From Omphalotus guepiniiformis (Eukaryota; Basidiomycota; Agaricomycetes; Agaricales; Omphalotaceae), in contig JAQOOI010000042.1 in assembly GCA_028554645.1 (NCBI GenBank), positions 62,001-126,000 of the forward strand: 64,000 bases of DNA, given 5' to 3'. Position 1 is the stretch's first letter. Every line of letters starts with the position of its first letter. The translations under genes were made by a program, and so were the position numbers. Positions 9,366 through 49,081 of this stretch are shown in pieces. The notes beneath the pieces were generated by a model. That model was not told the DNA's origin and did not search any database. It saw only the letters and a program-made list of their open reading frames with translations.

Positions 9366-9370
9366 AGAAA

Positions 9371-15721: not shown

Positions 15722-16275
15722 CTAAAAATCTTGATGTCCGCAGTCAATTCTTCAGCCAATCTACTGACTTTATTTTATAGTACAGCAGTTGTTAAAAGTT
15801 CAATAAAATTTTTCTCCAACATTATTCACCCAGTCAATATTCCATTATTCAAACACTGGATCGAAAGCTGCTATGGCACAATCACGTGACTTTTTGCTGA
15901 ACTGCCAGAACTGAATACAAACAGCTTTGGCCTCACAAACTTAGAAGTGTGTTTTCCTAACTTGTGCATTTTAAAGTTTTTCTGGAATATTAGCCCTCAA
16001 CACGAGCTGATTTCCATCATAGGTGAGTCATTATTACCTTATAGGTTGTTATTTCTTTTATTCACATCTTTTTTCATTTCACGCTTGTCACTTTATTATA
16101 TATGGGTTCAACTTCGCTTTTTCTTTCTTTGTATGATTTCTATTTCTCCGACTCTCAGAATCTACAGGACAAGCTGGGACTTCGTTCTATCCCTCCTGAT
16201 CTTCATTCTACTACTTTTAATCATTCTATTCTTCTTCTTTGTTGGCTGCATTCTCTCCCTTCTTTGTTTGCTCCA

Positions 16276-18958: not shown

Positions 18959-20336
18959 TGATGCGCCGATTTTCGGCATCTGCATTAAAAGCCAGGTGAT
19001 TAATCATTTTAGGCATTTGCAGTGAGGTATTAGAGGGTTGAAAGGTGCCCGCCTTGTCAATCAAAATGTGTTGTGATTTGAGTAATAAAGCATGTTCTAT
19101 TACCTACGGTACAACATGTGTATCAAGGTTCTAGGCTAGTCAGTACAGTTGTGATGTAGAGAATTGTTCAATAGCCATCCACTGTTGAATCAGACTCACC
19201 CAATCTCGTAACGAGAACTCTGACATCACAACGTCAATTGCATCATATAACTATTAGGGGAACATCTTCCTCCGGTCAATAAAGAATAAAAACCCGGCGG
19301 AAACTAAAAATGGATGGGACGCGAAATAGAGTCGAAATAATGGATCTAGAATAGTTTTGGGGTATTTACTCCTTAATTAATTGCCAGGAACAAAAGTTGA
19401 TCGAGGAAATTTGCTTCGATTAATTGTCCGGTGAAAATTGCTTGACAAGAAACCGGTTAGGAGGTGTAAAAACTCGATCAGTAAAATTTCTCGGAATACT
19501 ACTGAATTGAAGGAGTTCCTTTAACAAAACAATGTGATACTTTGAGGGGTATAATTTCTATCAGGTGATTAATCCTATGGAACCCGGATGCCCGAGAAAT
19601 GTCAAGGAAATCCGTAAAAATGAAATAAAGGGGCTGAATATTGACTATAATAAAAATAATGGAATTAAAACACATTTTTGAGGTTTTGCCTCATAAAATA
19701 GATCTATACAAGTAATAATGGACATACTTGACACAGATACTTACAACCTACATACACGGATATAGGTATATATATAAAACAGGACAGTTTAGCTATAATT
19801 TCCGTTTTTATTAATTTTGGACTGGCAGTATGTATAAAAGGGCAGTAACCTGGAGAGAGAAAATCCAGGAGAGTACCATAGAGTCACAGGGTCACTGGGG
19901 ATTGTCTTTATAGCGTGAATCGTGCCTGTGAAGGGAAATCCTACCAAAAACATAAAGTTGCCCTGGTCTGTTTATAGTCCGGTGTTTATTGCGATATTGT
20001 ATAAAGATCATTGTTGGTTGAATTGAACTGGTTGTGTTATTGGAATTGGTTGTTTGATCTTGTGGTCAATTGGTTGTGATTGTGCAGTGAACACCTGTCT
20101 TGTTCAAAACCGTCTTGTGCTACTTTTTGCCTTAGTGCATTTTAAAAGCTCAGCTATAAAGTTCTTGTGATAAAGATATAAAGTTCTAATAAAGAAGCCA
20201 TAAGTTTGGTCGTGCGGAACCTTCGACAACGCCCCCCTCAGACTCGCACCTTTCGAGTGACTTGGTTGTTTTGGTTGTTTTTGAGTTTTTGTTCATTAGC
20301 CCTTTAGCAGTTCATTTCCCTGATTCATTCTCATCA
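18959..20336 (+). repeat. Gypsy-A 5' LTR
   Basis: This 1378-bp LTR has ends TGATG and CATCA. It contains a TATA-like box and, near its 3' end, a block GCGGAACCTTCGACAACGC that is also present in Gypsy-B LTRs. Confidence 0.92.
19833..19840 (+). promoter_or_regulatory. TATA-like box in Gypsy-A 5' LTR
   Basis: TATAAAAG lies about 874 bp into the LTR and recurs at the same place in the 3' LTR (48578-48585). It is a plausible core promoter for the element RNA. Confidence 0.55.
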
Positions 20337-20338
20337 TC

Positions 20339-20354
20339 TGGAGCCCACCGCGAG
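20339..20354 (+). promoter_or_regulatory. Gypsy-A primer-binding site
   Basis: TGGAGCCCACCGCGAG begins two bases after the LTR and starts with TGG, complementary to a tRNA CCA end. The same sequence follows the Gypsy-B 5' LTR. I cannot name the tRNA. Confidence 0.75.
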
Positions 20355-20861
20355 GGTCAAAAGTACAAATTGACTTCGTGAGGGACGAATTCGTGGCTTT
20401 CTAACGGAATTTTACCGTTTGAATTACAAGGAGATTTGTGTTGTGCAATAAAGTACTGTTTTGTTCTATACAGTGCTACATAAAGCTTTTGCTTTAATTT
20501 TGGATTGTGAAGTTCACTGGTCAAAATTAGTGGACCTAGCAAACCTAAACCAAAACGTCAGACAAAGAATTCCCAAAGAGCTGGTGAAGAAGTTTTAAAC
20601 TTTCAATCCAGATCTTCTACAAGAGAAAGAAGTGTTACTAGTTCCGCATCTAAGGGCAAAGGGAAATCAGTACCAGAGCCTGAAAGTGTTGATCCAGTAT
20701 TACCTGGTTCTTTTGTTCTGTCATCTGACAATAATCGGGAGTTCATACCCGGTGAATTTGATCGTTTACGTCCGCCTAAATCTACTGTTGGATTTGGAAA
20801 GTCTTATAGACTACCTGCTTCAGCACAAAAATCTAAAAAGAGTTTCAGAGAAGTTACTACT
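20355..20861 (+). other. Gypsy-A leader with an open frame upstream of gag
   Basis: The gag frame is open upstream of its first ATG back to about 20450. The translated segment after TCAAAATTAG (20521-20530) resembles the equivalent Gypsy-B segment (R-Q-T-K/R-N-S-x-R-A-G). There is no in-frame ATG here, so this part would need splicing or a non-AUG start if translated. Confidence 0.45.
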
Positions 20862-22334
20862 ATGCCTGCTACTAGTACTACTGGTGCTGGTCCAAGTGGA
20901 CAAAGTAGAGGAGATGATGATATACCCAGAAACAATGATAATACAAGGACAACTTTTGTGGGAGTTCATGAACTTTCCCCAGAAGCATTAAAGGAAATCC
21001 AGAATGATAAGCTTCCTAAGAAATCAAAAATGGCACCAATCTTTGACCATGTAGATCCTGGCAGTTTGATAAGCTGGTTGGAACAAGTGGAAGAAATATT
21101 CCTGAAAATGGGAATTAAAGATGATGCAGCAAAGATTTACTTAGCTACAGACTGGATGACTCATGATACGAAGAAAAGGGTTGAAGCTTACCCTGAAACA
21201 AAAAGTAGAAAGTGGGGAACATTCAAAGATGCTTTGAAACAAAACTTTCCAGAGTCTTCTTTAGAAGAAGGAGGTTCTCTGACCAAGTTGAGAAAGTTAA
21301 ATTCAGAGTATGCATATATTCCATTGAAGAACTTTGATAAGTTCTTCAAGTTCAAAAGGCTGTTTGAATATGAGTATAAGAAAGCTGCAAAGCCACCGGC
21401 TGTTATCTCTAACTTAGAGGCAGTAACTCTGTTTGGCAGATCCTTAGAACCTGCTTTCTGGGATAAAGTAAAGGATAGACTGGAAAAGACTTATATAGCT
21501 AATCCAGATAATCCTAGAAGAAGGGAAGACAAGTATCCTATTGAGGATGTGATAGCTGCTGCTGCCCACATCTGTGAGAATAACATGGATGATGGTTTTG
21601 CAATAGTCGGCATGTCTCTAGCTTCTGAAACAGAAAGAGAAAGAAGTTACACACCTTTTAATATTAAAAGGGAGAATGTTGAGAAGAATGAATTTGAAAG
21701 AAAGATTGCTGATACAATGGATAGGCATGAAGTTGCCTTGAAACAGGTGCAATCTAGATTTGAAGAGAATCAAGCTACCTTGATCTCTCAAGTTCAAAAA
21801 GTTCTTGCAGAAACATTAGGTGGTAACAATGGTATGAATATACCACACATGCAATCTATTGCTATGGGTCAGAACCGTGGTAATAGATATGCAAACCCAC
21901 AAGGACCTACAGAATATTCTTGTTATTTCTGTGGTGAGAAAGGGCATATTGCTACAAATTGTCCTCACCAGAAATCACAGTTTGAGAAGGGATATTTAGT
22001 TAGGAATGCAAGAGGAATGATAGTCATGAAAGATGGACAAGTTGCTCCATCTGGTGATATGAATTCTTCTAGAAAGGACAAAATTGAAGCTATTGCTAAA
22101 CAAAAAGGTTGGGATAAGGAAGTTGGCAAAAATGCCTTCATCTTTGCAGAAGAAAGTGACATGGGATATAATATGCCTAGTGGACCTTCTGAATCTCAAC
22201 ATAATAGTTTTGATATGTCAGTCTTTACCAACACCTTGTTGAAGATTTCAGAAAGATTGGACAGAATTGAAAATCAGGATAAAAGCCAGACTTCAAATGG
22301 TCAGGCTTCTTACTTGAGCCAGTCGGGAAACTAA
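20862..22334 (+). CDS. Gypsy-A Gag
   Basis: This 490-aa protein has a retrotransposon-gag-like region at ~50-240 (W-L-E-Q-V-E-E-I-F, W-G-T-F-K-D-A-L-K), a central charged coiled region (~270-320) and a CCHC zinc knuckle at C354, C357, H362 and C367 followed by a basic tail. It would form the capsid and bind RNA. The chosen ATG is the first in frame, but conserved coding-like sequence lies upstream, so the N-terminus is uncertain. The frame ends at TAA directly after a -1 slippery heptamer, and the protease frame follows in -1. Confidence 0.9.
   Translation: MPATSTTGAGPSGQSRGDDDIPRNNDNTRTTFVGVHELSPEALKEIQNDKLPKKSKMAPIFDHVDPGSLISWLEQVEEIFLKMGIKDDAAKIYLATDWMTHDTKKRVEAYPETKSRKWGTFKDALKQNFPESSLEEGGSLTKLRKLNSEYAYIPLKNFDKFFKFKRLFEYEYKKAAKPPAVISNLEAVTLFGRSLEPAFWDKVKDRLEKTYIANPDNPRRREDKYPIEDVIAAAAHICENNMDDGFAIVGMSLASETERERSYTPFNIKRENVEKNEFERKIADTMDRHEVALKQVQSRFEENQATLISQVQKVLAETLGGNNGMNIPHMQSIAMGQNRGNRYANPQGPTEYSCYFCGEKGHIATNCPHQKSQFEKGYLVRNARGMIVMKDGQVAPSGDMNSSRKDKIEAIAKQKGWDKEVGKNAFIFAEESDMGYNMPSGPSESQHNSFDMSVFTNTLLKISERLDRIENQDKSQTSNGQASYLSQSGN
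22325..22331 (+). other. Candidate -1 frameshift site, gag-protease (Gypsy-A)
   Basis: GGGAAAC is in the correct phase (G GGA AAC) and is followed immediately by the gag stop TAA. Slipping -1 reads V-G-K-L-S-V-P-M straight into the protease frame. Gypsy-B has V-E-K-L-E-V-P-M at the same place, which shows protein-level conservation in the -1 frame upstream of the protease ATG. G GGA AAC is an established retroviral slippery class. Confidence 0.8.
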
Positions 22335-22342
22335 GTGTTCCG

Positions 22343-23737: not shown

Positions 23738-23790
23738 TTGGCCCTCAGGGAGAGGTAGCTCTAAGAGTTGGCCTGAAAGAAAATGGTGAA

Positions 23791-26589: not shown

Positions 26590-26748
26590 ACTCAAAGTTG
26601 TAACTAGTATTCTTCATTACAAAGCTATCTAGTCACTACATGACTCTGAGTATGCACATAATGTATAGTAAGGACAGTGTTTAGGTATATATATAATATA
26701 TGCCGGACATTTAAAAAGAACGTTGTAAATAAAGTGGTACCAGGGGAA

Positions 26749-28066
26749 CTACTCGTCAGTGGTCATGTCGGTGGTAGAGGTAGAATCTACTGAGTCCATA
26801 GAGTCATCTCCATCCACATTGGAACTACCTTTAATGGACTTCTTCTTAATAACTAAGGAAAGATTGTCTGCTAGCTTCTGCATGTCACGATAACGAGCAC
26901 CGTTGGTTTGAACAATGTGTGCGAGAGTAGAACACTCGGTACGGAGGCAATTGTGTATGGCCTTAAGAGATTCGAGCGTGAGCTGGTCGTAATCGTAGTA
27001 TGGAACAAACGCGAGTGTCTTAAGAACACTGGTGTGAGCCATATCACGTAGGGCCTTCTCAACTATAAAGAATAATGTCAGAATGTATATTGAATACTAT
27101 TAAGTGTGTACTTACAGTCAGTTTCTTCACTAAGGTTTGAAACAGCTGTTTCCAACTTAAGTCGTTTTTGGCCGGATGTCGCAAAGCCCTTCGAAATGTA
27201 GTGGTTAGCCTTCCTGTACGCGCCAGAGGATTGATCCAATCCAGGAACTGCTGAGTATGGCATGCTTACAACGGCGTGTTGGTTCACGATAAGTTCTGCC
27301 TTACGGAACTAGTAACGAATTAATATATGTCCGGTTGAAAATAATGAGTGACTTACAGTAAGATTCTTGATAGCACTAGCTTCTTTAGCGCTGCTAGAGC
27401 CCTTGGTACCATCAGTCATCTGTAAGAACAATGTGTACAAAATGTTAGTACAAAGTATTAATTACCGGGTGGAAATTACTTACAAGTGCTTCACCGACAG
27501 TTTTGTCGAGAGGAGGGGTAATAATGACTTCAACATTGTCGTCGTCGTCACAAACAGCCTTTGACTTGGGGGTTTCCTTGCCCTGGAATAAAGTTAGATA
27601 ATGAATATAAGTCTGGTACATATTCGTACCTTGCGTTTCCGATTGTTACCTTCTTCTTTAGCCTTAGCGACTGCTTCAGCAGCAGCAGCAGCATTCTTGA
27701 GACGTTCTTGAACCATACGGTCAATGTGTTTCTGAAGTCCAGCTACAGAACGAAGAGGCGACATTTGAGGACAAGCTGCCATAACCGCCTGCAGGGCAGT
27801 GACGTTGTCTTCAAACTTCTTGAAGAGTTCGTTGTCGGCAGCTGTAGTAGCCATATCGAGGGGTTTAACCTTAAACTCGAATTATTATTAAACGCTGGAC
27901 GATTATTAAAAATGTAATAACGTACCAAGAAGTCACAAAGCGTCTTAGCGAATTGGAACATCTCTCCATCGGGAACGTTACGAGCACGAGCACGATCAAA
28001 GGTGCCACGACGAAGTTCCAGCAAAGCAAGCCAGTCTTCTTTGATGAAAGAGGGAGTAGGGGCCAT
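26749..28066 (-). CDS. Gypsy-A antisense gene 1 (unknown function)
   Basis: This gene is antisense to the element and has six exons: 27926-28066, 27630-27875 (or -27869), 27484-27582, 27357-27419, 27116-27308, 26749-27062. All introns are GT-AG and about 45-65 nt. They join in frame to about 350 aa. The N-terminus starts M-A-P-T-P-S-F-I-K. The middle is Ala/Lys-rich (N-A-A-A-A-A-E-A) with an acidic D-D-D-D patch, and the C-terminal third follows an N-L-S-E-E-T-D block conserved in the Gypsy-B copy and ends in a Ser/Thr/Asp-rich tail. I recognise no domain. It converges tail-to-tail on pol. A self-consistent gene model in an element that old suggests selection. Confidence 0.75.
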
Positions 28067-28759
28067 TGAGAAAGTAAGAGCTTGTGATAACGAGTTATAG
28101 AACGAATGAATGTTGGTTCGATGCAATTTACGATCCTTACATTTGTTCTTTTATAGCTGAAAAATGTATTGTACCTGGCTGAAAACTTTTGAGGTCGAAA
28201 AATTATCTTCAAATTCTCTTAGGGGTATAATGTTCAGCGGGGGCGCTGAAATTTTTGGTTTGGGGGAGAGGGTGACAAGTTGCAGAAAAATTATGAATAT
28301 AATTATTATCCGGTGTATAATCGTCCCCCAAATTAAAAGAAACATAAAAGAATAGAAGGAAAAACGAAGTAAAAAGAATGTAATATTGAATGTTGTGGTC
28401 ATTTCTTAATATGGAATTTAAGCGCTGAGCGTTTATCTTTGATTTTGAATTTCAGCCGGACTTCAGAAAGTCAGCTGCAACTTCGATTTCTTAGAATCTT
28501 AAGGTTTGAATTCACTCATAATAAGCAAAAGAAAGCACAATGACAATGATATTTTAGTACCCTAAGTGTCTACAAGCAAGAGGTAGAACTTAAACTTAGG
28601 TACAAACAGCGGTATGGTAAAGATAATGTTCGTATAAAGTGTTCGTTCCGACGAGTGGCGACCTACAACGAAATAAGACCGTCAAGAAAAGCAGAGATAA
28701 ACGCGTTCAAAAGAAGGAGCTGGGGTGAATAGAATGAACAGAAAGTGTAAGTCCAGTGC
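28067..28759. other. Space between the Gypsy-A antisense genes
   Basis: The AT-rich spacer is presumably the promoter of antisense gene 1 (reading leftwards) and the 3' end of antisense gene 2. It contains the internal polypurine tract at 28259. I see no gene. Confidence 0.5.
28259..28270 (+). promoter_or_regulatory. Internal polypurine tract, Gypsy-A
   Basis: TTTGGGGGAGAG matches the 3' tract before the LTR (TTTGGGGGAGA at 47691). Gypsy-B has the same tract at the equivalent point (40238). It may be a second plus-strand primer, as the central tract is in lentiviruses, or a relic of module duplication. Confidence 0.6.
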
Positions 28760-29037
28760 CTAAGCTTCTGGACTTACCTCCTGCGATTCCCCAACTCCTG
28801 CACTTTGATTTGCAGTTTCTCTAGCCTTGTCTAAAAACGCGGGGTCTACGGCTATCGGTTCGCCTTGGTCGTTGGTGCTGATTGCGCTACGAAGCCGAAA
28901 GTCGTCGACTTGCCACCCGAGAGCCGCAGCTAACAATTCCATCTGGCCTTTATTTGCTAAGAATTCCGCATCCGGCTCGAGAGAACGAAGAACGCTGCAA
29001 GCATCTACACACGATTCGCGAAGACGCTGTTGTTCGG
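28760..29037 (-). pseudogene. Gypsy-A antisense gene 2, 3' part
   Basis: This is the last coding segment of antisense gene 2, separated from the rest (45489-47135) by the Gypsy-B insertion. Removing Gypsy-B and one 4-bp duplication restores the frame exactly (I-Q-T followed by E-Q-Q-R-L-R). It encodes a helical region containing L-A-A-A-L-G-W, resembling L-C-T-A-L-G-W-D in the Gypsy-B protein, and ends at TAG/TAA-type stop 28760-28762. Confidence 0.8.
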
Positions 29038-30840
29038 TGTCGCGACTAAAAGCGGTCTAGGCTTGAAATCATGCAGATTGAGAAAGATTTTGGTTGTTCA
29101 AACATTGGAAACTGAACAATGAGAACTAGAGTTCACCCAGACTGCTAGTTGAAACATGAGAACACACTCAGTTACTCAAGCCTGAGTGTAGAGTTAGCTA
29201 TAGTACATGATATGGTACCTAGCAACTGTGACCAATGGGATCATGGAGAGAGATACTAGTTTTGCCTCTCACTTGATATTGGAGTACCAATGTTCCATGC
29301 TAAGTTGAGTTGGTCAGACCCACCCTCTAAAGACTAGAGACTCTCATGAGTGTTGTTTGATTGTAATCCAAGGGAATGATGGAAGTTACAATTCAATCTG
29401 AGAAACATCTAAGTCCACTGGACTATCTAACTCCAGCTGGTCTTGCTAACTCAGGTTGGCTGTAAAGACTGAATGCTGAGAGTGCAGACAAGCTTGTATT
29501 GCTCTGACCAGAGAAATATGTTGTACATTTGGTACTATGCTTAGAATGGTGTTACAACTTGTGAACCACCATTGTCTGTAGGCTGAAGAGGAAAAATCCT
29601 CTAAGTCATTTCTGAAGAATGGAGTTAGATGCTCAAGTTATCTTACCACGGAACTAGATGTTGATTCTGGAGTATCCCTCTGAAATGTAACATCTAACTG
29701 AGTGATACCCTGAACCCAGACACCCAAATAGGGAAGAAGAAACGATTATTGGGACATAATACTGTCCATAGCTTGTTGCTAGAACCAGCTAAAAGGAGAA
29801 GTACCTCCTGGAGACAAATCAGATGCAAGATCTGGCCAGATAGACACCTGTGCTACTGTACAGCTTGTGGATGATAGTAACAACGGAGTAGGGTCTAGAT
29901 GACCTCTGAAACGAAGAAATAACCACTGGATATGCTAGGAACCTCACCAGCATCCCCCAGTTAGGAAAATCAAAAGAGTTGCAAATTTCAAAATCATAAA
30001 AGATATTGTCATATGGCACCATTCTGGACTGATATTGCGTGCTGTACACCCTGGTTAGATACCCTGGACTTGATTGCCAAGCCACTATATGGACAAAGCG
30101 ATTTATATAACAATTTTTATACCCAAGATACCTATACATGACAGTATCTAACTGAAAAATACCTACAAAAATACCAAAAAAGACACCAATCCCTGCTCAA
30201 TTAGTCTTTCTGTTATCTATTCTATTTACTCTGCTCAGATTCCCTTACATTTTCGAGATTTACTATATTTATTCTCTGACCTGTATATAAGAACTACCTA
30301 CTTGTAGATATTTTTCCTTAAGTTAGGACTGCCTAGGCTCACTACCAAAGCAGAACTTCTTCTAGACGAAATTTGCCTGGCTCTTAGGAGTTCAGTTATA
30401 GAGAAATATACCAGTTGTGCAAACTTCTGTAAAGTCCCTTGTGGCAAACCTTGAGAGAGATACTGAAACTGTTGCTGTCCCTGCTGTTCTGTCTGTGCTG
30501 TTCTGCCTGCTGAAACTGTTGCTGCTACTGTTCTGATTGATACTGTCACTGTTTGGACCATTGGATCGAGTTGCCCACTCTGATTATTGCCCTGAACCAT
30601 CCCCCTGAACCCCTGAGAAACTAGTTGCCCTCAGTCTTGAACCTGTGTTTTTGAGTTACCCTGTCACTTATACCCTGTTCAGAGCGGACTGCAGACACTT
30701 GCTAGCTCAGTATTGAGTTCGATTGTCGAGTTTAACTGTGCGGAACCTTTGACAACGCCAGCCACACCTCCACAAACCCCCTAGAATTGAGTTAGAGGTT
30801 GTTTCTTGAGACTCCCTCTCAGTCTAATTCTTGCACATTA
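29038..30840 (+). repeat. Gypsy-B 5' LTR
   Basis: This 1803-bp LTR starts TGTCGCG and ends near CACATTA. The right limit is set by where the two LTRs stop matching, plus or minus one base. A CTG-rich degenerate stretch lies at about 30467-30540. Confidence 0.88.
30284..30291 (+). promoter_or_regulatory. TATA-like box in Gypsy-B 5' LTR
   Basis: TATATAAG lies about 1246 bp into the LTR and is repeated at 44932-44939 in the 3' LTR. It is a candidate core promoter. Confidence 0.5.
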
Positions 30841-30842
30841 TC

Positions 30843-30858
30843 TGGAGCCCACCGCGAG
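30843..30858 (+). promoter_or_regulatory. Gypsy-B primer-binding site
   Basis: TGGAGCCCACCGCGAG is identical to the Gypsy-A site, so both families use the same tRNA primer. Confidence 0.78.
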
Positions 30859-30983
30859 GGGTGGCTTTAGACTTGATATTTGAACCCTTCTGTGCTATTT
30901 GCACGCGTCTGGAATCTATCTGGACTACTCCCCTGCTGGAACTTTGTTCTGTTCTGCAGTTAGCAACTACATCTTTATAGAAG

Positions 30984-32932: not shown

Positions 32933-32940
32933 AGGTTCCA

Positions 32941-34338: not shown

Positions 34339-34427
34339 TAGAAGATCAGGGAGAGGTTGCTGTTTGTATTGAGATAGATGATGATGGAAATGCTACCATT
34401 GCTGGATTTAAGCTGCCAGATGCGAAA

Positions 34428-38393: not shown

Positions 38394-38608
38394 AAAGATA
38401 AAACACACTGTATTTGAAAAAGTAGCTAGTTAGATACTCGAGAGAGACTATCTAGCTCAATGAAAAATAAATAAAAGTGTAAAAAGTAGTTCTAAACTAC
38501 TAAGATGAATGAAAAAGGATGTTCTAAATACTCGAGGATGTCCTATGTGATGTACCAGTGACGTGTATACTACCTATACATTGAAACTAAGGTGCTAAAA
38601 AGTAACAT

Positions 38609-40011
38609 CTAGTTCAGTGTTAAGTCTGCAGGAGGAAATTCATGAAATGGAGCTGGGTCTGAAGCTACTGCTGGACCTGCCTGCAAGGGATCCTGAGAAG
38701 CACGATTGGCCTTCTCTTTTGCCTTCCTGAGCTGCTCCAACTTGGAATATTCCTGGTAGGCAAACCTGTACTGAGAATGGTGATACTGGATAGCATGTTG
38801 GTGAACACTGAGTTCAGTCCTCAGAAAGTTGGAAATAGAGTGAAGGACTTCTGGAGAGAAGTGGTCAAGGTCCATGAACGGAAATAAAGCCGTAATGCGA
38901 TTAACTATCTCTTCTCCACTCTCCCTGAGTTTGCGCTCATCTGTAAAGCATAGAGTTAGATACTCGACGCGGTACCAGATTGAGTTAGATACTCACACTC
39001 TGTCTCTTCACTAAGGTTGACAAAGGGCTTCTCAATGCGAGGCTTCTTCTGACTACCAGCCTTGGGAGTTTCTGGGACAGTCTCAGGCTATAGGAGCAGT
39101 AAACAGTCAGTCATGCTGTACTTATCAACTCAGAGTAAAAATAACCCTTACCACTTTGGACTGAATTGGGTTGGCCTATATGGTCCAAAAGACGTTCAAA
39201 GTAAGTAAAAGAGATGAAATAATAAGGCTGAGAAAGGATACCTACCACTGGAGTAGTAGGTACTACTTTGTCCTTAGCAGTCTTAGCAGCTGCACTAGGG
39301 GTGTTGGTAACCTTGCCTGATTCCTTGCTGTCCTTCTTGGGAGCATGGATGGACGCAGAAAGTCCCAGGGCTGGTCCATCAGCCATCTGAAAAATGAAAG
39401 GAAATGAAAATTAGAAATTATTCAGGCCACTATGGAGTTAGATACTCAACAGTAACGTCTCCATCGCCTGTAATAACTTCGATTTCCTCATCCTCATCAT
39501 TGTCGTCATCAACAAGCTCAGGGGTTTTCGCTGGCTGCACGGAAACATGCAGTTAGTGACTCCAGGTGACGAGGATACTCGAGAAAAATGCTTACTTTGC
39601 GCTTTCTGGGTGGAAGATCCCTCTCCCTGCGCTTAACCAAGTCCTCCCTGAAGATCTTGATATGAGCAAAAGTGTCAGGCTCAGGAATGCTTGAATATTT
39701 CTTGAGGGTGTCAGACACCAAGGAAACACCTTTGTCATATAGACCAAAGGCTTCTTCGGACTTGGCAACTGCAAAAGCAGGAAGGGACTTCTTCTATAAC
39801 AGAGAGACGCAGAGTTAGATACTGGAACATGGCGGGCATCGAGTTAGATGTTACTCACCAGATGACTAGCTAGGGCAGTGACCAACATGCCCAATAGCTC
39901 GGTATCGACGTCCTTGGCCTCCATAGCTCCAGTAGCACGAGAAATATAACGTTGAGTAGTTGCTACCCACTCAGGGCGCTCAGGCCAACCTTTGGGACCT
40001 TTTGGGGGCAT
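38609..40011 (-). CDS. Gypsy-B antisense gene 1 (unknown function)
   Basis: Seven exons can be modelled: 39859-40011, 39596-39793, 39451-39534, 39246-39386, 39152-39175, 38997-39087, 38609-38940. All have GT-AG introns and join in frame to 340 aa. The protein starts M-P-P-K-G-P-K, has a K-R-R-E-R basic patch, an acidic D-D-D-N-D-E-D-E-E patch and an M-A-D-G block matching M-T-D-G in Gypsy-A. The shared N-L-S-E-E-T block sits at the same exon end, with the same intron phase, as in Gypsy-A. No known domain. The paired conservation of exon order and phase shows that it is the counterpart of 26749-28066. Several introns contain the GAGTATCTAACTC motif. Confidence 0.78.
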
Positions 40012-40842
40012 AGTAATGAAGTATGAGAAGTATAAGAATTGGGAAGGATGTAAAAGGGTAGAACCAAGTATCTTATGGTGCTGAATCGTCGTCAACGATT
40101 TGGGGAGCCCTTTATACTAGTTCTATACCTAACTTCTCGATTTGGACATTGAAAAACCTTGGACCAGGTTACTAAGTCAAAATTTCTTGACTAGGCCTGC
40201 CCATGCAATTCAACGGGGACATTGAAATTTATTTTGCTTTGGGGGAGAGAGTAAAAACAAGTTAACAATGACTCTAGAGCGAAATTTTTGATTTTTCAAA
40301 GATTAAGATCTAGAGATCTGGAACAGCTTTGACCGTTTGAGGGCTTAGCCGGCTTAAGATTGCCGAGTTCAACTCTGTCTTCACGCGGAAACCTTGGGCA
40401 AAATAAATCTTGACTTATCCATAATAAATAAAGATACTTACAGAATTTTATTTGAATATAACCTGTAATCATGGAGTCTCCCTCTGAAGCTCGACTTAGA
40501 TACTGTATCTGGAGAGGGATACTCGGACTTTTATAACATTTCAACTTAAAGTTCACACTTAAAGAAGAAAACAAGATAAATGAAATATATTTGAGCTCTA
40601 GAAGCTCATTGTTATGACTATGGAAGACACTCTACATGTACTACTATCTGAATAGAATACAGTGAGTGTCTGAAATACAAGATATATATATAAGGGCAAC
40701 TCAGTGTGTTAAACACTTGAGTCACCCCGCACGAGATGCAAACAGTTTACTGATAAAGAAACGACCAGTCCAACGCTGCGTAGGAATCACCGTAATGCTG
40801 AGGAAGATATGCTAGAAGGGCTGGAGGAACCTCGTGTGCGAG
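40012..40842. other. Space between the Gypsy-B antisense genes
   Basis: This is presumably the promoter of antisense gene 1 and the 3' side of antisense gene 2. It holds the internal polypurine tract at 40238 and otherwise nothing that I recognise. Confidence 0.5.
40238..40250 (+). promoter_or_regulatory. Internal polypurine tract, Gypsy-B
   Basis: TTTGGGGGAGAGA occupies the same position as the Gypsy-A internal tract, between the two antisense genes, and matches the 3' tract at 43678. Confidence 0.6.
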
Positions 40843-43196
40843 TCACTCTGAAGGGATATAATCCTCTTCAGGTAGTGGACTGCTCGCGGGAGCGAGAACC
40901 TTCTCAGTGTCCAATTCGTCCGCATCATCCTCGACTTCGGAACCGTTGTGAGAAGCACCAGTCGCTGGACGCGGCTCTTCGGTGTTCTTAGCAATAGATT
41001 CGGCTCGAAATGTAGAGGGATGAGATGGGCCAGCCTCGGCTTTATCCTCCTCGGGATCGACTACGATGAAGTTGCCGGCGCTGTTCTTCGAGATGTAACT
41101 GGCACGAGACACGATGTTGACGTCCCAACCAAGCGCGGTACAGAGAAGTCGCATCTGCTCGTCAGTGTATTCGAAGGACGGGTCACCAGTCTTAAGCTGA
41201 TGGAGTACGAGTCGAGGATCCCTGCACGATGCCTTGATATGCGCCTGACGATCGATGATTCCAGCGTGAAGTTGTTCCATGGCCTGCATCTGCGCGACAA
41301 CCCCTTCCTGCATCTTCTCGTAGGAGTCGATAAGAAGTTGGAGTTGACCCGCCTCTTGTGCAATGACTAGATAAACGAGAAATTCAGTTAGAAATTGAAT
41401 TGAAACCAAGAAAAATGAGAATAACTCACCAGCGCTACTACTACGAGCTAAGGTGTATGAAAGGCAGCGCATCTGATCGGTACCTTCGAGGCTGTATGTC
41501 CAACTGCACGCATGATTGTCCTTGGCGCAGGTACTACATCTCCAGTCAAACGAGTTCTCCTTGATTTGAGGGCGACACTTGCGACCGTCGGAATGGGTAC
41601 TGCCGACGCAAGCTGCGCAGATGGAATCACCGAAGAACTGCAAAAAGTATCAGCTAAAAGATGCTGCAATAAGAAAAATGAGATACTTACGCGGGTCGAA
41701 CGAGCGATTAATAGAAACGAGCTGTTGAAGTGTAACGGGACGACCGTAAGGCCACCCGAAGACAGTACGGTCTAGACAAATCGTTAGTTCTAAAAACTAT
41801 AAGTTAAGAAAACGAAATGACGTACCAGGAACGTCGGTATATTCCTCCTTGTTCCGGTGTTGAAAGGTGCGACCATCGACACGCTGGATAAAGCAAGGAA
41901 AGGTTAGTAGACCATACTGAGAAATGAAAAAGAAGACCTACTTGAAGATTAGGGGGTTCGTCATGAACGCCGGGAGCCTTCAGCACGGATGTAGTTGAGA
42001 AACCTGCGCGATTCGGCCAAAGGGAAGCAGAAAGGTCGACTTTGGACTCCTTGGCACCCTTCGACCCCTCATTCTTCTTTTTGGGCTTGTCTTCCTCATC
42101 CTCTACTTCCTCCTCGTCGCTGGATTCAGGGAGAGTCGTCTTGGTCGAAGTAGAAGCGGCCTTGGACCGAGTTTGACGCGCCGGCAGTTCCTCCACAGGT
42201 TCCTCCACGTGAATAGATTGAGTCTTCGGGCGAGGCTTCACCGTTTGCTTACCCTTGCCCTGTAAAGCCCATGAGAAATGAATACACCTAAGAAAGAGAA
42301 AATGAAACTCACCTTAGAAGATTTGGGAGCCTCAGGCTTCTTGGTCAATGAGGTCCGGGTTTTCTTTCTTGGAGGCTCGGAATCAGGAACCTCCGCGTTG
42401 TCGTCATCAGAGTCATCGGTGAAAACGGCAGAGTCCTCGGAATCCAGAGATTTGCGTTTCGACTAGAAAAATGAACAAGTCAGGAGGGATCCACTGCGAG
42501 AAATTCAAAAACTTACCACAGATCGACCCGGCATCGGTGTCAGGGCAGGTTTAGGTTTTGTCTTTGTAGCCGGAGCTGTCTTCTTGGTGGAACGAGTGGA
42601 TTTGGCAGCGGAAGCAATGGGTTCGATAGGAGAAAGGCGGATCTCGTCATCTTCTTCGTCGTCTTCGTGGTCTTCGAGCTGAGGGCCTAGGAGAGACTTG
42701 GGAAAAGGCGGTAAAGGCTCCCAGAGATTCCGCAGCTAAAAGAGAAATGAGACTTTGAATGTCAAAAGAAATAGACCCCTGAACTAGAAACTCACTGTAA
42801 ACTTCTTGTGCAAATCGTCATACCGAGCCCTGGAAGGACACCAAGGTGGCAGGACGAAAGTCCCCGGCCTCTGTTGATGCAACCAGAGCGCGAGGTTCGA
42901 AGCGGCAAGGAAGGTTCCAGTGAAGTAGTCGGGCAAATGGGTCTCGTTCTTCTGACAACGATTAAAAACCAACGCAACGTGAGCCTATACAGCGTAAACA
43001 CGCGTTAGTAAAGGCATAAATAAGAAATGAAAATAAAACCTACAAGAGCGAATTTTGCCTCCTCAAAAGTAGCGGACATCAGTTTGAGCCGGAGACCTGC
43101 ACCATAATGTTCAAATGATTGGTCGCGGAGTCGACGATCGAAGTCCCCAAGCTTAGAGCAGACGGTGGAAAGGGCCTGGTAGTTGTTGGCCTGCAT
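40843..43196 (-). CDS. Gypsy-B antisense gene 2: six-cysteine protein
   Basis: Nine exons can be modelled: 43044-43196, 42796-42984, 42517-42735, 42313-42462, 41942-42259, 41826-41883, 41691-41771, 41430-41637, 40843-41366. The product would have an N-terminal helical part, a long acidic/basic Ser-Lys-rich middle (nuclear-protein-like), then a cluster C-x2-C-x10-C-x12-C-x2-C-x6-C and a C-terminal helical domain with an acidic tail. The C-x2-C-x6-C half resembles one half of a fungal Zn2Cys6 cluster, so zinc and nucleic-acid binding is plausible but inferred. The exon 7 to 8 junction does not hold frame with the AG that I can see, so either the model or the gene is imperfect there. Confidence 0.7.
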
Positions 43197-43677
43197 AGTG
43201 TGTACACGCTAAGTAGGAAGTGAGAAAAGAGAAGGAAAGGGAGACTCCATGGAACGGGGATCTCAACTATATATGACACGACCGAAACGGTCCGTGAGAG
43301 AAAGAAGAATGAGTTGACTCACGAACTCAATGGAGGCATCGCTTCCTAGAGAAATGGAGTTAGCAAGTTCCCTAGAAAAGTCGTCCATAGGGAGACTCAG
43401 TGAGATGTGAAGAACGAAAGGGGTCTTCCATATTTGGCTGAACTTTGACGGATGCAGACATCGGGTTTCTCCAAATTGAGCATTGCCGAGGCATGCCGAG
43501 TGAAAAACGTACTGATCGGTCTTTCAATCGAGAAGTCTGCCTAACGGCAGTTCACTGTGACAAGGTGTCAACGTGATAGTAAAGCAATTGACTTGACTTC
43601 TGTGACTAACTACCTGGAAAAGTAGTATCTAACTCGATATTGGCCATCATGGACGATCGAGGTCGATCTTATTTTAC
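43197..43677. other. Upstream region of Gypsy-B antisense gene 2
   Basis: The spacer between the antisense gene start and the 3' polypurine tract contains one copy of AGTATCTAAC (43624-43633). No gene is seen; it probably holds the antisense promoter. Confidence 0.45.
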
Positions 43678-43688
43678 TTTGGGGGAGA
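43678..43688 (+). promoter_or_regulatory. 3' polypurine tract, Gypsy-B
   Basis: TTTGGGGGAGA ends immediately before the 3' LTR. Confidence 0.85.
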
Positions 43689-45488
43689 TGTCGCAACTAA
43701 AAGCGGTCTAGGCTTGAAATCATGCAGATTGAGAAAGATTTTGGTTGTTCAAACATTGGAAACTGAACAATGAGAACTAGAGTTCACCCAGACTGCTAGT
43801 TGAAACATGAGAACACACTCAGTTACTCAAGCCTGAGTGTAGAGTTAGCTATAGTACATGATATGGTACCTAGCAACTGTGACCAATGGGATCATGGAGA
43901 GAGATACTAGTTTTGCCTCTCACTTGGTATTGGAGTACCAATGTTCCATGCTAAGTTGAGTTGGTCAGACCCACCCTCTAAAGACTAGAGACTCTCATGA
44001 GTGTTGTTTGATTGTAATCCAAGGGAATGATGGAAGTTACAATTCAATCTGAGAAACATCTAAGTCCACTGGACTATCTAACTCCAGCTGGTCTTGCTAA
44101 CTCAGGTTGGCTGTAAAGACTGAATGCTGAGAGTGACAAGCTTGTATTGCTCTGACCAGAGAAATATGTTGTACATTTGGTACTATGCTTAGAATGGTGT
44201 TACAACTTGTGAACCACCATTGTCTGTAGGCTGAAGAGGAAAAATCCTCTAAGTCATTTCTGAAGAATGGAGTTAGATGCTCAAGTTATCTTACCACGGA
44301 ACTAGATGTTGATTCTGGAGTATCCCTCTGAAATGTAACATCTAACTGAGTGATACCCTGAACCCAGACACCCAAATAGGGAAGAAGAAACGATTATTGG
44401 GACATAATACTGTCCATAGCTTGTTGCTAGAACCAGCTAAAAGGAGAAGTACCTCCTGGAGACAAATCAGATGCAAGATCTGGCCAGATAGACACCTGTG
44501 CTACTGTACAGCTTGTGGATGATAGTAACAACGGAGTAGGGTCTAGATGACCTCTGAAACGAAGAAATAACCACTGGATATGCTAGGAACCTCACCAGCA
44601 TCCCCCAGTTAGGAAAATCAAAAGAGTTGCAAATTTCAAAATCATAAAAGATATTGTCATATGGCACCATTCTGGACTGATATTGCGTGCTGTACACCCT
44701 GGTTAGATACCCTGGACTTGATTGCCAAGCCACTATATGGACAAAGCGATTTATATAACAATTTTTATACCCAAGATACCTATACATGACAGTATCTAAC
44801 TGAAAAATACCTACAAAAATACCAAAAAAGACACCAATCCCTGCTCAATTAGTCTTTCTGTTATCTATTCTATTTACTCTGCTCAGATTCCCTTACATTT
44901 TCGAGATTTACTATATTTATTCTCTGACCTGTATATAAGAACTACCTACTTGTAGATATTTTTCCTTAAGTTAGGACTGCCTAGGCTCACTACCAAAGCA
45001 GAACTTCTTCTAGACGAAATTTGCCTGGCTCTTAGGAGTTCAGTTATAGAGAAATATACCAGTTGTGCAAACTTCTGTAAAGTCCCTTGTGGCAAACCTT
45101 GAGAGAGATACTGAAACTGTTGCTGTCCCTGCTGTTCTGTCTGTGCTGTTCTGCCTGCTGAAACTGTTGCTGCTACTGTTCTGATTGATACTGTCACTGT
45201 TTGGACCATTGGATCGAGTTGCCCACTCTGATTATTGCCCTGAACCATCCCCCTGAACCCCTGAGAAACTAGTTGCCCTCAGTCTTGAACCTGTGTTTTT
45301 GAGTTACCCTGTCACTTATACCCTGTTCAGAGCGGACTGCAGACACTTGCTAGCTCAGTATTGAGTTCAATTGTCGAGTTTAACTGTGCGGAACCTTTGA
45401 CAACGCCAGCCACACCTCCACAAACCCCCTAGAATTGAGTTAGAGGTTGTTTCTTGAGACTCCCTCTCAGTCTAATTCTTGCACATTA
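43689..45488 (+). repeat. Gypsy-B 3' LTR
   Basis: This 1800-bp LTR is almost identical to 29038-30840, lacking three bases (CAG near 44134) and with a few substitutions. Small open frames shared by both LTRs come from the repeat and are not supported as genes. Confidence 0.9.
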
Positions 45489-47135
45489 TTGGTTTGAATC
45501 AATGAACTCAAACGTTTGGCGGACTCGCGAGTTTGATTTGATTGTCGAACGAGGTTGTCGAACTCAGCGTGAAGTTGTAGTAAATTCGAAATGTGTGTGT
45601 TGATCGCTAATAAAACGAAATTAGAAGGAATGAAAAAGACTAAAAATGGACTACGTACCAGCAGGGTGTTGACGTCCTTCCTGGAAAGCAAGGTCGCGCA
45701 CCTTTGTGATACCATCGAGCGAATATTGAAAGGAACAAGGTCGTTTCCATTTCTCGCAGACGCTACATTTGTTGTCCTCTCCGCGCCATACACATGGCTG
45801 ACTGAGATTGCCGGCTAGGCATCCAGCGCAGATGGGGTTCAAGCTGTAACCTTGGAGAGACCGATTGACGGTGACGAGGTCCTTGAACTTGTGTCGTAGG
45901 CCGGTAGGATCAACGAAATTGAAGGGGATCATAGCTGCGGAGGTGGCGAGGCGTGAATCTCTGATAAAGGATTTCTTGCTGCCGGTTGGCTAAAGAAAAC
46001 AGTTAAGAAACAAAAAGAATAAAGATATAATGTGGAACTTACTGCATTGGTAGCGTATGTAATTTCGTAGGGGTTGGCAGTAACAGTTTCGACTACCTCG
46101 TCGTCTTCGCCAGCGCTAACCTCAACCGTTTTCTAGAAATGGGATTAGTTAGTAAACATAATGTTAATAAAAGGATTGGATAAAGAGACCTACCTCGGGT
46201 TTGACCTTTTTGGGACGACCTCGACCACGTGAAGCACCAGAACGAGTCGATGTAGGAATCGAAGTCGTCGACCGAGTTTGAATCTGCGACCGAAGTGCTG
46301 GGGAAGGAACACGCTTCACCTTTTTCTTTGGCGGAGACTCCAACTCGTCCTCTTCCTCTTCTTCGTCGTCCAAATCGTCATCGTCGTCAGAAGATTCTTC
46401 AACGGGAGGCGACTCTTTGAGTTTTTTTGGAGAAGCTTTGGACGGAAGTTCAGGAAGCGCCGAGACATTGAATTCCGGAAGGGAGGAGAAGTCAAAGGAG
46501 TTCCCGCTTTGAAAACGATAGGATTCAACGGGAGGGAGTTGACGAGATAAAGGAAAAGGCTGAAAAAGAGTCGTAAGTAACGATACAAAAAGAAGGATAT
46601 GAGAAAAACAAACCTTGAACTTGAGCGCTTTCAGCTCACAAAGCATTGCCTTGGGAATTACCATCGGTTCGAGAGTTTCGAAGTCAGAAAGGCCGGTATC
46701 TTGTAGACGCCAAGCTAGACGAGAGATTGACCACCAAAAACATCTTGCATAGTAGGGAAAATCGTCGTCAGAAGTCCAGTCTTCATAGAATGTGTGCTAG
46801 AAAGTAATAAAGACCTTAGTAAGGGAATGATTTGAATAAAACATAATGAATCTTACCCAGGTGGTATAAGCGTTATCCAAGGGCATGATTAGATGAGCAA
46901 CTCGGAAGCTAGGATTGTCGTCTTTTTCGAAGAGGCGAATACAAACCTCTGAGACATGGCGCTGGATCGCAACCATAGCCTCTTGGAGCGCGATGTGCTG
47001 CACACAAGGAAGAGAAACCGATGAAAAGATGGGGGGGGCTTTCTTACGAGGAGCTATAGTGGACGTCCCGGCGGAAGTCGTTCACCCAGAGTCGCGTTTC
47101 TTCTTGTTACCTGAGCCGTCTTTCTTGGGAGCCAT
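45489..47135 (-). pseudogene. Gypsy-A antisense gene 2, 5' part: six-cysteine protein
   Basis: Read leftwards from about 47135 (M-A-P-K-K start; first exon boundary uncertain), exons carry an H-I-A-L-Q helical segment, the C-F-W-W-S-I-S block, a very acidic region with P-P-K-K-K and R-G-R-G-R-P-K-K (AT-hook-like), and a cluster C-x2-C-x8-C-x8-C-x2-C-x6-C, the counterpart of the Gypsy-B cluster. Introns are short GT-AG. The frame is then broken by Gypsy-B, with the remainder at 28760-29037. Before that insertion the gene appears intact. The R-G-R-G-R-P motif and cysteine cluster suggest a nuclear DNA-binding role (inference). Confidence 0.78.
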
Positions 47136-47690
47136 TGGAGCAAACGAAGTAGGGAGAGAATACAACCAACAAAGAAGAAGGATAGAACGATTGAAAGCAG
47201 TAGAATGAAGGTCAGAAGGGAGAGCACCAAGTTCCTGCTCGTTCTGTAAATTCTGAGAGTCGGAGGGATAGGAATCATATGAAGAAAGAAAAAACGAAGT
47301 TGAACCCATATATAATGAAGTGACGAACGTGAAAAGCAAAAAGATGTGAATAAAAAGATATGACAATGTATACGGTAATAATGACTCACCTATGATGGGA
47401 AACAGATCGTGTTGAGGGCCGATATTCCAGAAAAACTTTAAAATGAGCGAGTTAGGAAAACACACTTCTGAGTTCGTGAGGCCAAAGCTGTTTGTATTCA
47501 GTTCTGGCAGTTCGGCAAAAAGTCACATGATCATGCCATAGTGGCTTTCGATCCGGTGTTTGAATAATGGAATATTGACCGGATGAATAATGTTGAAGGA
47601 AAATTTTATTGAACTCTTAACAACTGCTGTACTATAACATAAAGTCAGTAGATTGGCTGAAGAATTGACCGGGGACGGTCAAGATTTTAG
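47136..47690. other. Upstream region of Gypsy-A antisense gene 2
   Basis: The spacer to the 3' polypurine tract is closely related in sequence to 15722-16275 in the reverse copy. It is likely the antisense promoter; no gene is seen. Confidence 0.5.
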
Positions 47691-47701
47691 TTTGGGGGAG
47701 A
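47691..47701 (+). promoter_or_regulatory. 3' polypurine tract, Gypsy-A
   Basis: TTTGGGGGAGA lies directly before the 3' LTR. Confidence 0.85.
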
Positions 47702-49081
47702 TGATGCGCTGATTTTCGGCACCTGCATTAAAAGCCAGGTGATTAATCATTTTAGGCATTTGCAGTGAGGGGTATAGAGGGTTGAAAGGTGCCCGCCTTG
47801 TCAATCAAAATGTGTTGTGATTTGAGTAATAAAGCATGTTCTATTACCTACGGTACAACATGTGTATCAAGGTTCTAGGCTAGTCAGTACAGTTGTGATG
47901 TAGAGAATTGTTCAATAGCCATCCACTGTTGAATCAGACTCACCCAATCTCGTAACGAGAACTCTGACATCACAACATCAATTGCATCATATAACTATTA
48001 GGGGAACATCTTCCTCCGGTCAATAAAGATTAAGAACCCGGTGGAAACTAAAAATGGATGGAATGCGAAATAGAGTCGAAATAATGGATCTAGAATAGTT
48101 TTGGGGTATTTACTCCTTAATTAATTGCCAGGAACAAAAAGTTGATCGAGGAAATTTGCTTTGATTAATTGTCCGGTGAAAATTGCTTGACAAGAAACCG
48201 GTTAGGAGGTGTAAAAACTCGATCAGTAAAATTTCTCGGAATACTACTGAATTGAAGGAGTTCCTTTAACGAAACAATGTGATACTTTGAGGGGTATAAT
48301 TTCTATCAGGTGATTAATCCTATGGAACCCGGATGCCCGAGAAATGTCAAGGAAATCCGTAAAAATGAAATAAAGGGGCTGAATATTGTCTACAATAAAA
48401 ATAATGGAATTAAAACGCATTTTTGAGGTTTGCCTCCTAAAATAGATCTATAACAAGTAATAATGGACATACTTGACGCAGATACTTACAACCTACATAC
48501 ACGGATATAGGTATATATATAAAACAGGACAGTTTGGCTATAATTTCCGTTTTTATTAATTTTGGACTGGCAGTATGTATAAAAGGGCAGTAACCTGGAG
48601 AGAGAAAATCCAGGAGAGTACCATAGAGTCACAGGGTCACTGGGGATCGTCTTTATAACGTGAATTGTGCCTGTGAAGGGAAATCCTACCAAAAACATAA
48701 AGTTGCCCTGGTCTGTTAATAGTCTGGTGTTTATTGTGATATTGTATAAAGATCATTGTTGGTTGAATTGAACTGGTTGTGTTATTGGAATTGGTTGTTT
48801 GATCTTGTGGTCAATTGATTGTGATTGTGCAGTGAACACCTGTCTTGTTCAAAATCATCTTGTGCTACTTTTTTGCCTTAGTGCATTTTAAAAGCTCAAC
48901 TATAAAGTTCTTGTGATAAAGATATAAAGTTCTAATAAAGAAGCCATAAGTTTGGTCGTGCGGAACCTTCGACAACGCCCCCTCAGACTCGCACCTTGCG
49001 AGTGACTTGGTTGTTTTGGTTGTTTTTGGGTTTTTGTTCATTAGCCCTTTAGCAGTTCATTTCCCCGTTTCATTCTCATCA
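47702..49081 (+). repeat. Gypsy-A 3' LTR
   Basis: This 1380-bp LTR matches 18959-20336 with scattered differences (for example CGCTGATT for CGCCGATT at the start). ACGG follows at 49082-49085. Confidence 0.92.

Follow-up and report, generated by a model that had tools for sequence, protein, structure and literature searches.

Large Ty3/gypsy retrotransposons of Omphalotus guepiniiformis with two intron-bearing antisense genes

Two related elements, A and B, in the window analysed here (64,000 nucleotides of Omphalotus guepiniiformis, contig JAQOOI010000042.1, positions 62,001 to 126,000) are members of a lineage of large fungal Ty3/gypsy retrotransposons with two antisense accessory genes, and these genes are under selection about as strong as that on pol. 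The case shows that antisense placement relative to the genomic RNA lets a retroelement retain multi-intron genes, under pol-like selection. The gene products are best read as nuclear and probably DNA-binding accessory regulators. Element B and its sister family C also carry a new dispersed motif, GAGTATCTAACTC, to which these proteins may bind.

Architecture of the nested elements

Element A (18959-49081) is the host of element B (29038-45489), which is inserted in the last exon (exon 6) of A antisense gene 2. The order common to both is gag, protease and pol on the forward strand, then two antisense multi-exon gene models and the 3' LTR. The preliminary description had claimed two related gypsy elements with this gene order and an antisense pair between pol and the 3' LTR, and the LTR pairs, the forward-strand domains and the exon models bear this out.

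18959..20336, +, element A 5' LTR, 97.3% identical to 47702-49081
20862..22334, +, element A gag ORF, zinc knuckle PF00098
22343..23737, +, element A protease ORF, PF13975
23791..26589, +, element A pol (RT/RNase H), internal deletion has removed the integrase core, dN/dS 0.13
47702..49081, +, element A 3' LTR, paired with the 5' LTR, AACGG on both sides of the element
29038..30841, +, element B 5' LTR, 99.7% identical to 43689-45489
31817..32932, +, element B gag ORF with zinc knuckle (domain match)
32941..34338, +, element B protease ORF (domain match)
34428..38393, +, element B pol (RT/RNase H/integrase), 1321 aa, dN/dS 0.18 for the 3' part
43689..45489, +, element B 3' LTR, paired with the 5' LTR, end uncertain by about 1 base

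A domain search of the window proteins recovered the gag zinc knuckle, aspartic protease, RNase H and the integrase zinc-binding domain on the forward strand, giving the combination expected of Ty3/gypsy elements: an LTR pair, a zinc-knuckle gag, an aspartic protease, and RT-RNase H followed by integrase. The RT had no Pfam match in the window proteins, yet it aligns over its full length with relatives, and PF00078 or PF00665 was present in 2 of the 12 rows of these relatives. Pol had 1357 matches at E 1e-10 or better in a set of 5.8 billion proteins, of which the best named for a fungus was from Lentinula edodes (62%). The integrase core that is missing from the window copy of A was kept in all seven other A loci examined.

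Structure of the antisense genes

26749..28066, -, element A antisense gene 1, 6 exons (28066-27926, 27869-27630, 27582-27484, 27419-27357, 27308-27116, 27062-26749), dN/dS 0.16
28148..28155, -, TATAAAAG, 89 bp upstream of the A gene 1 start codon (sequence)
28760..29037, -, element A antisense gene 2, remainder of exon 6 beyond element B (exon model, copies)
45490..47135, -, element A antisense gene 2, 5' portion with exons 1-5 and the beginning of exon 6; exon 1 holds a premature stop (exon model, copies)
45654..45989, -, A gene 2 exon with six-cysteine cluster C-x2-C-x8-C-x8-C-x2-C-x6-C, PF00172 not reached
38609..40011, -, element B antisense gene 1, 7 exons (40011-39859, 39793-39596, 39534-39451, 39386-39246, 39175-39152, 39087-38997, 38940-38609), dN/dS 0.12
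40110..40116, -, TATAAAG, 105 bp upstream of the B gene 1 start codon (sequence)
40843..43196, -, element B antisense gene 2, 9 exons, exon 7 with a private frameshift, dN/dS 0.10
41430..41637, -, B gene 2 exon carrying the six-cysteine cluster (exon model)

The gene 1 frames are open in the window copies of both A and B. As previously claimed, every intron is GT-AG, and an NLSEET block forms the end of the penultimate exon in both, followed by an intron of phase 1. Family C gene 1 is the same gene, with exon limits matching at most exons, and in A, B, C and F (a further family, described below) gene 1 is preceded by a TATAAA box. Two-sequence BLASTP, run with composition correction and the low-complexity filter off and hence with generous E-values, gave 24% identity between the A and B gene 1 proteins (E 3e-17) and 25% between the gene 2 proteins (E 2e-22). 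The gene 1 protein combines a KR-rich basic stretch with an acidic patch and a predicted C-terminal helical, coiled-coil-like domain; its last exon was modelled as helical (mean pLDDT 77), with a long helix predicted in the C-terminal part, and structure comparison of this model found no solved relative at E 0.001 or better.

Gene 2 of A comprises 6 exons in total, split by element B into 47135-45490 and 29037-28760. Gene 2 is broken in both window copies, by the frameshift in B and by the premature stop and the insertion of B in A. The B frameshift is absent from all 12 other copies aligned across exon 7, several of which are damaged elsewhere and one within exon 7 as well. Many copies are damaged, and the frame is open in only 5 of 9 B copies and 2 of 6 A copies. 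The gene 2 protein combines basic runs, which we take to be NLS-like, with a six-cysteine, zinc-cluster-like domain, present in both elements as the preliminary description had stated, and a C-terminal, probably helical domain; the tail was poorly modelled (mean pLDDT 54). The sequence RGRPKK in A gene 2 is presumably AT-hook-like.

Neither gene product reached the Pfam cut-off for any domain when four spliced proteins and ten pieces were searched; in the same searches no bZIP domain appeared among the Pfam matches, and Transposase 28 (PF04195) had no match at E up to 10. The six cysteines of gene 2 (C-x2-C ... C-x2-C-x6-C, then weak coiled-coil matches) recall fungal Zn(2)-Cys(6) transcription factors; however, PF00172 did not match the gene 2 proteins of A, B, C or D, and matched a family F piece at E 2.7 across 13 residues, below the cut-off. 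With 8-10 residues before the third cysteine in A-D, and a looser overall arrangement in B, C and D than in A, all four depart from what we take to be the Zn(2)-Cys(6) spacing rule, which among A, B, C, D and F holds for F only. Sequence searches against solved structures returned nothing or weak coiled-coil matches. No homologue of gene 1, or of gene 2 with a two-sequence alignment as query, was found outside the Omphalotus guepiniiformis genome in the set of 5.8 billion proteins, a weak negative because that search requires shared exact words and intron-blind protein predictions match spliced genes badly. Viral contig and genome contig collections, both non-fungal, contained no relatives.

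Introns, selection and recurrence

GT-AG was retained in 197 of the 201 introns examined across genome copies (B gene 1, 53/54; B gene 2, 72/72; A gene 1, 45/45; A gene 2, 27/30), with 8 A-type copies fetched of 43 matches and the A gene 2 statistics calculated without L041 and L046, whose sequence differs there. Introns persist in copies of A, B and C, and D has plausible introns. Such persistence would be predicted from the position of the genes antisense to the genomic RNA, and supports the earlier claim that their introns escape removal in retrotransposition.

Summed dN/dS in the modelled frame was 0.12 for B gene 1, 0.10 for B gene 2, 0.16 for A gene 1 and 0.21 for A gene 2, against 0.8-4.2 out of frame. 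Most copies preserve in-frame exon lengths, and the splice sites are retained, which together with low dN/dS in the modelled frame alone indicates more than chance. Since the values for the antisense genes (0.10-0.21) resemble those of pol in the same elements (0.13 in A and 0.18 in B, 3' part), both genes appear to act for the element.

At least four related families (A, B, C and D) contain the antisense pair. Among 111 typed gene-2 loci, 94 have an antisense integrase behind them, 1 has a same-strand integrase only and 16 have none; this count used one last-exon match per locus among the listed matches that contain the last exon, and an integrase list of 150 scored rows. From the side of pol, the antisense genes lie 3' of it at 23 of 30 A and 9 of 10 D copies, counted with a typed subset of gene-2 matches. 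The preliminary description had proposed checking dN/dS across copies and position relative to pol, and both checks favoured real element genes: dN/dS is far from neutral, and the genes are mostly 3' of pol and antisense to it.

A dispersed motif in families B and C

An exact search of the genome gave 327 matches to the 13-bp near-palindrome GAGTATCTAACTC and 0 to its reversed control. Element B contains 15 sites, exact or with one mismatch, of which 2 are LTR repeats of 2 others, against 0.06 expected in the whole window. The sites, located by motif scan, lie on both strands in the LTRs, leader, gag, pol and introns.

29421..29433, +, one mismatch, 5' LTR, repeated at 44072
29622..29634, -, one mismatch, 5' LTR, repeated at 44270
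31413..31425, +, one mismatch, 5' leader
31902..31914, +, one mismatch, gag
34605..34617, -, exact, pol
36742..36754, +, exact, pol
36906..36918, +, one mismatch, pol
38427..38439, -, one mismatch, 3' of gene 1
38953..38965, -, exact, gene 1 intron 6
38982..38994, -, exact, gene 1 intron 6, at the splice donor
39435..39447, -, exact, gene 1 intron 3
39812..39824, -, one mismatch, gene 1 intron 1
43623..43635, +, one mismatch, between gene 2 and the 3' LTR

On contigs C1-C25 the motif occurs within 6 kb of 17 of the 18 B/C gene-2 loci, compared with 1 of 12 for A and 1 of 12 for D, in a count that covers 97 of 100 listed motif places (327 exist) and sets aside small A-type fragments on C16 and C19. 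Of 97 listed sites, 20 lie at a distance of over 12 kb from every B/C or A/D anchor that was used. Intronic copies contain CTAAC, which we take to resemble a fungal branch site. Among B copies, motif positions in gene 1 introns showed no extra constraint (3/52 variable, compared with 22/328 other intron positions). The A, D and F sequences examined contain neither GAGTATCTAACTC nor a comparable dispersed motif; recognition of such a motif is thus not common to all families with the gene pair. Within B/C, GAGTATCTAACTC is a concrete candidate recognition site for the antisense proteins, with the A and D families as natural controls.

Comparison with known systems

According to the passages cited, plant Retand elements as a rule carry antisense ORFs whose domain probably binds DNA, TRP28 being the predicted DNA-binding domain on that strand (PMC11963269), and Grande GENE23 is nuclear and has its own promoter (PMC7264820). 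The fungal elements share with these Tat-lineage elements a long region between pol and the 3' LTR, antisense coding within it, nuclear or DNA-binding predictions and, in parallel with the own promoter of Grande GENE23, a probable promoter upstream (PMC11963269, PMC7264820). In contrast, the Retand/Grande ORFs described there carry Transposase 28 (PF04195) or SMC domains, which the fungal pair lacks, and the main texts of both papers never mention an intron, whereas the fungal models comprise two genes with 5-8 introns each.

In a fungus, the gypsy element Boty of Botrytis cinerea carries the antisense gene brtn (Zhao et al. 2011, as cited in PMC7264820 and PMC8365987). Judged by its mentions in these citing papers, Boty has an ascomycete host and one named gene. 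The novelty suggested earlier thus stands in part: an antisense gene in a fungal gypsy element was already known, but a pair of many-exon antisense genes was not found in the literature searched.

The Arabidopsis VANDAL elements offer a parallel for the motif, as VANC21 binds a motif scattered through its own element, and both systems pair accessory genes with a family-specific short dispersed motif that extends into accessory-gene introns (PMC5735166, passages cited). Such a motif was found in B/C and not in A, D or F. Unlike the fungal elements, VANDAL is a plant DNA transposon, and VANC sites are described there as often tandem in non-coding parts, whereas the fungal sites are scattered and also occur in gag and pol.

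The fungal proteins contain no bZIP and derive from two many-intron genes of a retrotransposon, known from gene models. HBZ of HTLV-1, whose spliced gene lies close to the 3' end, is a bZIP protein. The likeness is that HBZ is an antisense nuclear regulatory protein of a retroelement (passage in PMC11963269).

Possible roles of the antisense genes

Each of the two antisense genes between pol and the 3' LTR probably has its own promoter. Its introns, being antisense, stay unspliced in genomic RNA and pass to each new copy, as anatomy and copies show; the host would transcribe and splice both genes to yield two nuclear proteins. Most likely these would bind the DNA or chromatin of their own element and promote transcription or counter silencing. 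We judge this proposal as a whole to have an even chance of being correct, and the lineage makes the function of gypsy antisense accessory genes testable. A role after transcription, and not in its regulation, is rather unlikely; here the proteins would resemble retroviral accessory proteins and act on the retrotransposition complex, be it in particle assembly, in nuclear entry or in the choice of integration site. Pol-like selection is compatible with any step, the long helix predicted in gene 1 and the absence of a dispersed DNA motif from A, D and F fit such a role, and nuclear import is discussed for such proteins in a passage of PMC7264820. It leaves the both-strand, B/C-specific motif unexplained, however, and the zinc-cluster-like domain, the presumed NLS-like runs and RGRPKK point to DNA. 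Far less probable is a functional antisense RNA with incidental reading frames, controlling the element through dsRNA or small RNAs. Retroelement antisense RNA can feed RNAi, an option raised in PMC7264820 (passage cited), but this predicts neither low dN/dS confined to the coding frame nor mostly in-frame exons. Chance capture or nesting of ordinary host genes, or of another transposon's genes, is hardly credible: introns do imply entry at the DNA level, from a source gene not identified, but at least four families whose proteins have diverged share the pair in one order and orientation, the gene-2 loci are mostly antisense to integrase (94 of 111), and no free host copy was identified, the 16 loci without a listed integrase being covered in the bulk count only.

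For the B/C branch, where the dispersed 13-bp motif would be the candidate recognition site for regulatory proteins of this kind, the gene pair may serve to recognise and regulate its own element. The fuller version of this reading is tentative and rather doubtful: a two-gene spliced antisense self-recognition module, of which one or both proteins bind GAGTATCTAACTC and protect or activate B/C only, as an independently evolved fungal counterpart of VANC, with other families using other signals. It is quite possible, instead, that the motif is a host-factor site or a splicing or replication signal unrelated to the antisense proteins, which would have another role. The overlap of intronic copies with CTAAC and the sites distant from the anchors fit that explanation; the spread of sites over both strands, from LTRs and leader to gag, pol and introns, and the tracking of the B/C gene lineage by the motif argue against it.

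Other families

The 3' region of family F has antisense open frames, a six-cysteine run and a TATAAAAGG box. Querying it directly with the A, B and D proteins yielded nothing significant, and homology of F to the A-D gene pair is not claimed, a profile comparison of the cysteine region with A-D giving an unconvincing probability of 7% and E 0.005. In the A family, k-mer and inverted-repeat counts resembled those of simulated sequence. A 12-mer enriched in the D family (130 exact genome matches, compared with 7 for its reversed control) was rejected as a dispersed motif, since it stems from a single (GACA)n array at each of three loci. The D family also shows a weak excess of CTTCG-N-CGAAG, at most 7 compared with simulated maxima of 5-6.

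Structure of the elements and their antisense genes

The assembly comprises 42.5 Mb in 80 contigs, the window being positions 62001-126000 of contig C27. Element B (16.45 kb) sits within element A (about 13.7 kb in this copy, with B subtracted). Both have on the + strand a zinc-knuckle gag, an ORF for an aspartic protease, and pol.

LTRs of elements A and B
18959-20336 and 47702-49081, LTRs of element A, 97.3% identical
29038-30841 and 43689-45489, LTRs of element B, 99.7% identical

Inverted A-type LTR copies at 14340-16286 and 49938-51210 (91-96% identical) flank element A. The top-ranked fungal-named relative of B pol was from Lentinula edodes (62% identity), which makes an agaricomycete host most likely; another pol relative, P0013, is labelled Thermoplasmataceae archaeon MAG and probably reflects fungal contamination of the bin. 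In the window copy of A (pol 23791-26589), an internal deletion has removed the integrase core while leaving the frame open, A residues 15-875 aligning with B 2-902 and A 883-929 with B 1269-1317. The core is present in 7/7 other A loci examined, and the window copy is potentially a non-autonomous derivative.

Each element carries two - strand gene models in the stretch from pol to the 3' LTR. Gene 1, with six exons in A (A1) and seven in B (B1), is open in both with GT-AG introns. Gene 2, with six exons in A (A2) and nine in B (B2), is broken in both window copies, B2 by an exon 7 frameshift absent from all 12 other copies aligned there, and A2 by a premature stop in exon 1 and the insertion of B. 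This insertion was placed in the last exon of A2 because another A copy reads through the point unbroken, and the exon is at full length in six aligned A copies. Intact A2 and B2 copies are present elsewhere in the genome.

Selection on the antisense genes

Splice sites and frames were compared across nine B copies (including that of the window) and across nine A copies for gene 1 and six for gene 2. Exon lengths were in frame in most copies of both elements and splice dinucleotides were retained, with GT-AG introns in 53/54 cases for B1, 72/72 for B2, 45/45 for A1 and 27/30 for A2, two of the three A2 exceptions resembling a shifted acceptor. Open copies numbered 9/9 for B1, 7/9 for A1, 5/9 for B2 and 2/6 for A2, for which two further copies had a single stop exactly at that irregular acceptor.

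Summed pairwise Nei-Gojobori dN/dS was 0.121 for B1, 0.103 for B2, 0.164 for A1 and 0.207 for A2, against 0.78-4.2 in shifted frames. These estimates are non-independent, as pairs share history, and codons were compared in the phase set by a reference copy. Evolution across genome copies is thus non-neutral. The same method gave 0.132 for A pol and 0.175 for the 3' part of B pol (eight copies each), and both the frame contrast and the match with pol are clear. The A and B proteins are homologous (E 3e-17 for gene 1 and 2e-22 for gene 2, in BLASTP of one sequence against the other with composition correction off). The two intron-bearing antisense gene models per element proposed in the preliminary description are upheld by splice sites, frames and dN/dS across copies, under protein-level selection like that on pol and tied to the pol lineage.

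Distribution among families

Over 8.4 kb spanning LTR, gag and pol, family C shares 84% identity with B; its gene 1 agrees with B in the limits of most exons, and its gene 2 is 56% identical over the C-terminal part. Both genes are present in family D, where the longer matched segments show about 22-37% identity; introns are plausible at both the first and the last gene 1 position, and some copies have pol frames of 1379 codons. A (GACA)n-type tandem array, by position probably in the LTR, was seen in three D loci (L047 1511-1560, L048 and L049).

The expected position, 3' of and antisense to pol, was largely borne out in this genome: at 94/111 typed loci an integrase followed gene 2 at no more than 7 kb and on the other strand, the remainder comprising one with only same-strand integrase and 16 without any, including the integrase-deleted window A copy. 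Conversely, antisense gene 2 followed 23/30 A and 9/10 D pol copies, and in none of these 30 and 10 was it solely in the orientation of pol. Family F has antisense frames in a similar layout, whose homology to the A-D genes was not established by comparison. In a further pol group (L051, contig C74), most listed copies share one integrase score (64% to the probe) and many have open frames of 1339 aa, so the group is probably young; its antisense frames, with Zn2Cys6-like cysteine spacing, are at most candidate relatives of the A-D genes.

Candidate expression signals, protein features and a dispersed motif

A TATAAA box lies 89, 105 and 103 bp upstream of the gene 1 start in A, B and C, and 46 bp upstream in F (start codon assumed). 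These boxes would fit separate antisense promoters, as reported for Grande gene23 (PMC7264820).

Pfam searches with both proteins returned no family at cut-off. In the gene 1 protein, a KR-rich stretch (RKRK) and an acidic patch are accompanied by a C-terminal domain modelled as helical (mean pLDDT 77). Acidic stretches and NLS-like runs mark the gene 2 protein, which in A also has an AT-hook-like RGRPKK. Its six-cysteine run, ending C-x2-C-x6-C, is conserved in A-D, and its C-terminal domain gives weak coiled-coil matches (best E 0.037). The Zn2Cys6, NLS and AT-hook labels follow general consensus patterns, and gene 2 does not match the Zn2Cys6 model PF00172.

The 13-bp motif GAGTATCTAACTC occurs, with at most one mismatch, at 15 sites in B (two per LTR, hence 13 discounting the LTR repeat), against 0.06 expected in the whole window. 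The one site elsewhere in the window, at 17719, lies in a fragment of a B-like LTR (17138-18879, 72-77% identical). Allowing two mismatches raises the number in B to 23, against a simulated mean of 0.85 and maximum of 3 (20 runs). Sites fall on both strands of the LTRs, leader, gag, protease, pol, gene 1 introns and intergenic DNA, and none in the antisense exons even with two mismatches allowed. Genome-wide there are 327 exact copies and none of the reversed pattern. On contigs C1-C25, the motif lies within 6 kb of gene 2 at 17/18 B/C, 1/12 A, 1/12 D and 0/1 further D-like loci, the lone D locus itself lying 3.7 kb from one of C. Among the 97 sites on these contigs, 72 have a B/C anchor no more than 12 kb away, five are near A/D only and 20 near neither.

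The antisense proteins may be nuclear and DNA-directed, regulating or protecting the element, with the B/C motif as their candidate target. Against a simple motif story stand the lack of extra conservation of sites in gene 1 introns among B copies (3/52 motif positions variable vs 22/328 remaining) and the absence of a comparable dispersed motif from those stretches of A, D and F that were examined. Placement differs partly between B and C, with five sites from leader to pol end in B and one in a C copy, and unlike LTR positions. Neither the motif nor its reverse complement was found in any paper searched.

In the literature available in part, VANC21 is the closest parallel in function, its motif being scattered through the element that encodes it, introns included (PMC5735166). 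In structure, Retand and Grande come closest (PMC11963269, PMC7264820). The claimed novelty holds in part: titles and abstract beginnings, mostly outside subscription papers, yielded no fungal element described as carrying two multi-intron antisense genes, but brtn of Boty is a fungal precedent for an antisense gene. The word "antisense" is absent from the available part of a survey of fungal LTR elements (PMC3248453).

Other features of the window

Positions 1-14000 hold rearranged copia-type (RVT_2) pieces, direct and inverted, whose arms are nearly identical. The same stretch includes four tRNA-Thr(TGT) genes within repeated blocks at 320 bp spacing. In the GC-richer right flank, 60422-61006 (+ strand) gave a weak Tet_JBP oxygenase match (PF12851, E 0.0019, under cut-off), possibly a TET-like gene, which would be of interest because the same window holds candidate anti-silencing elements.
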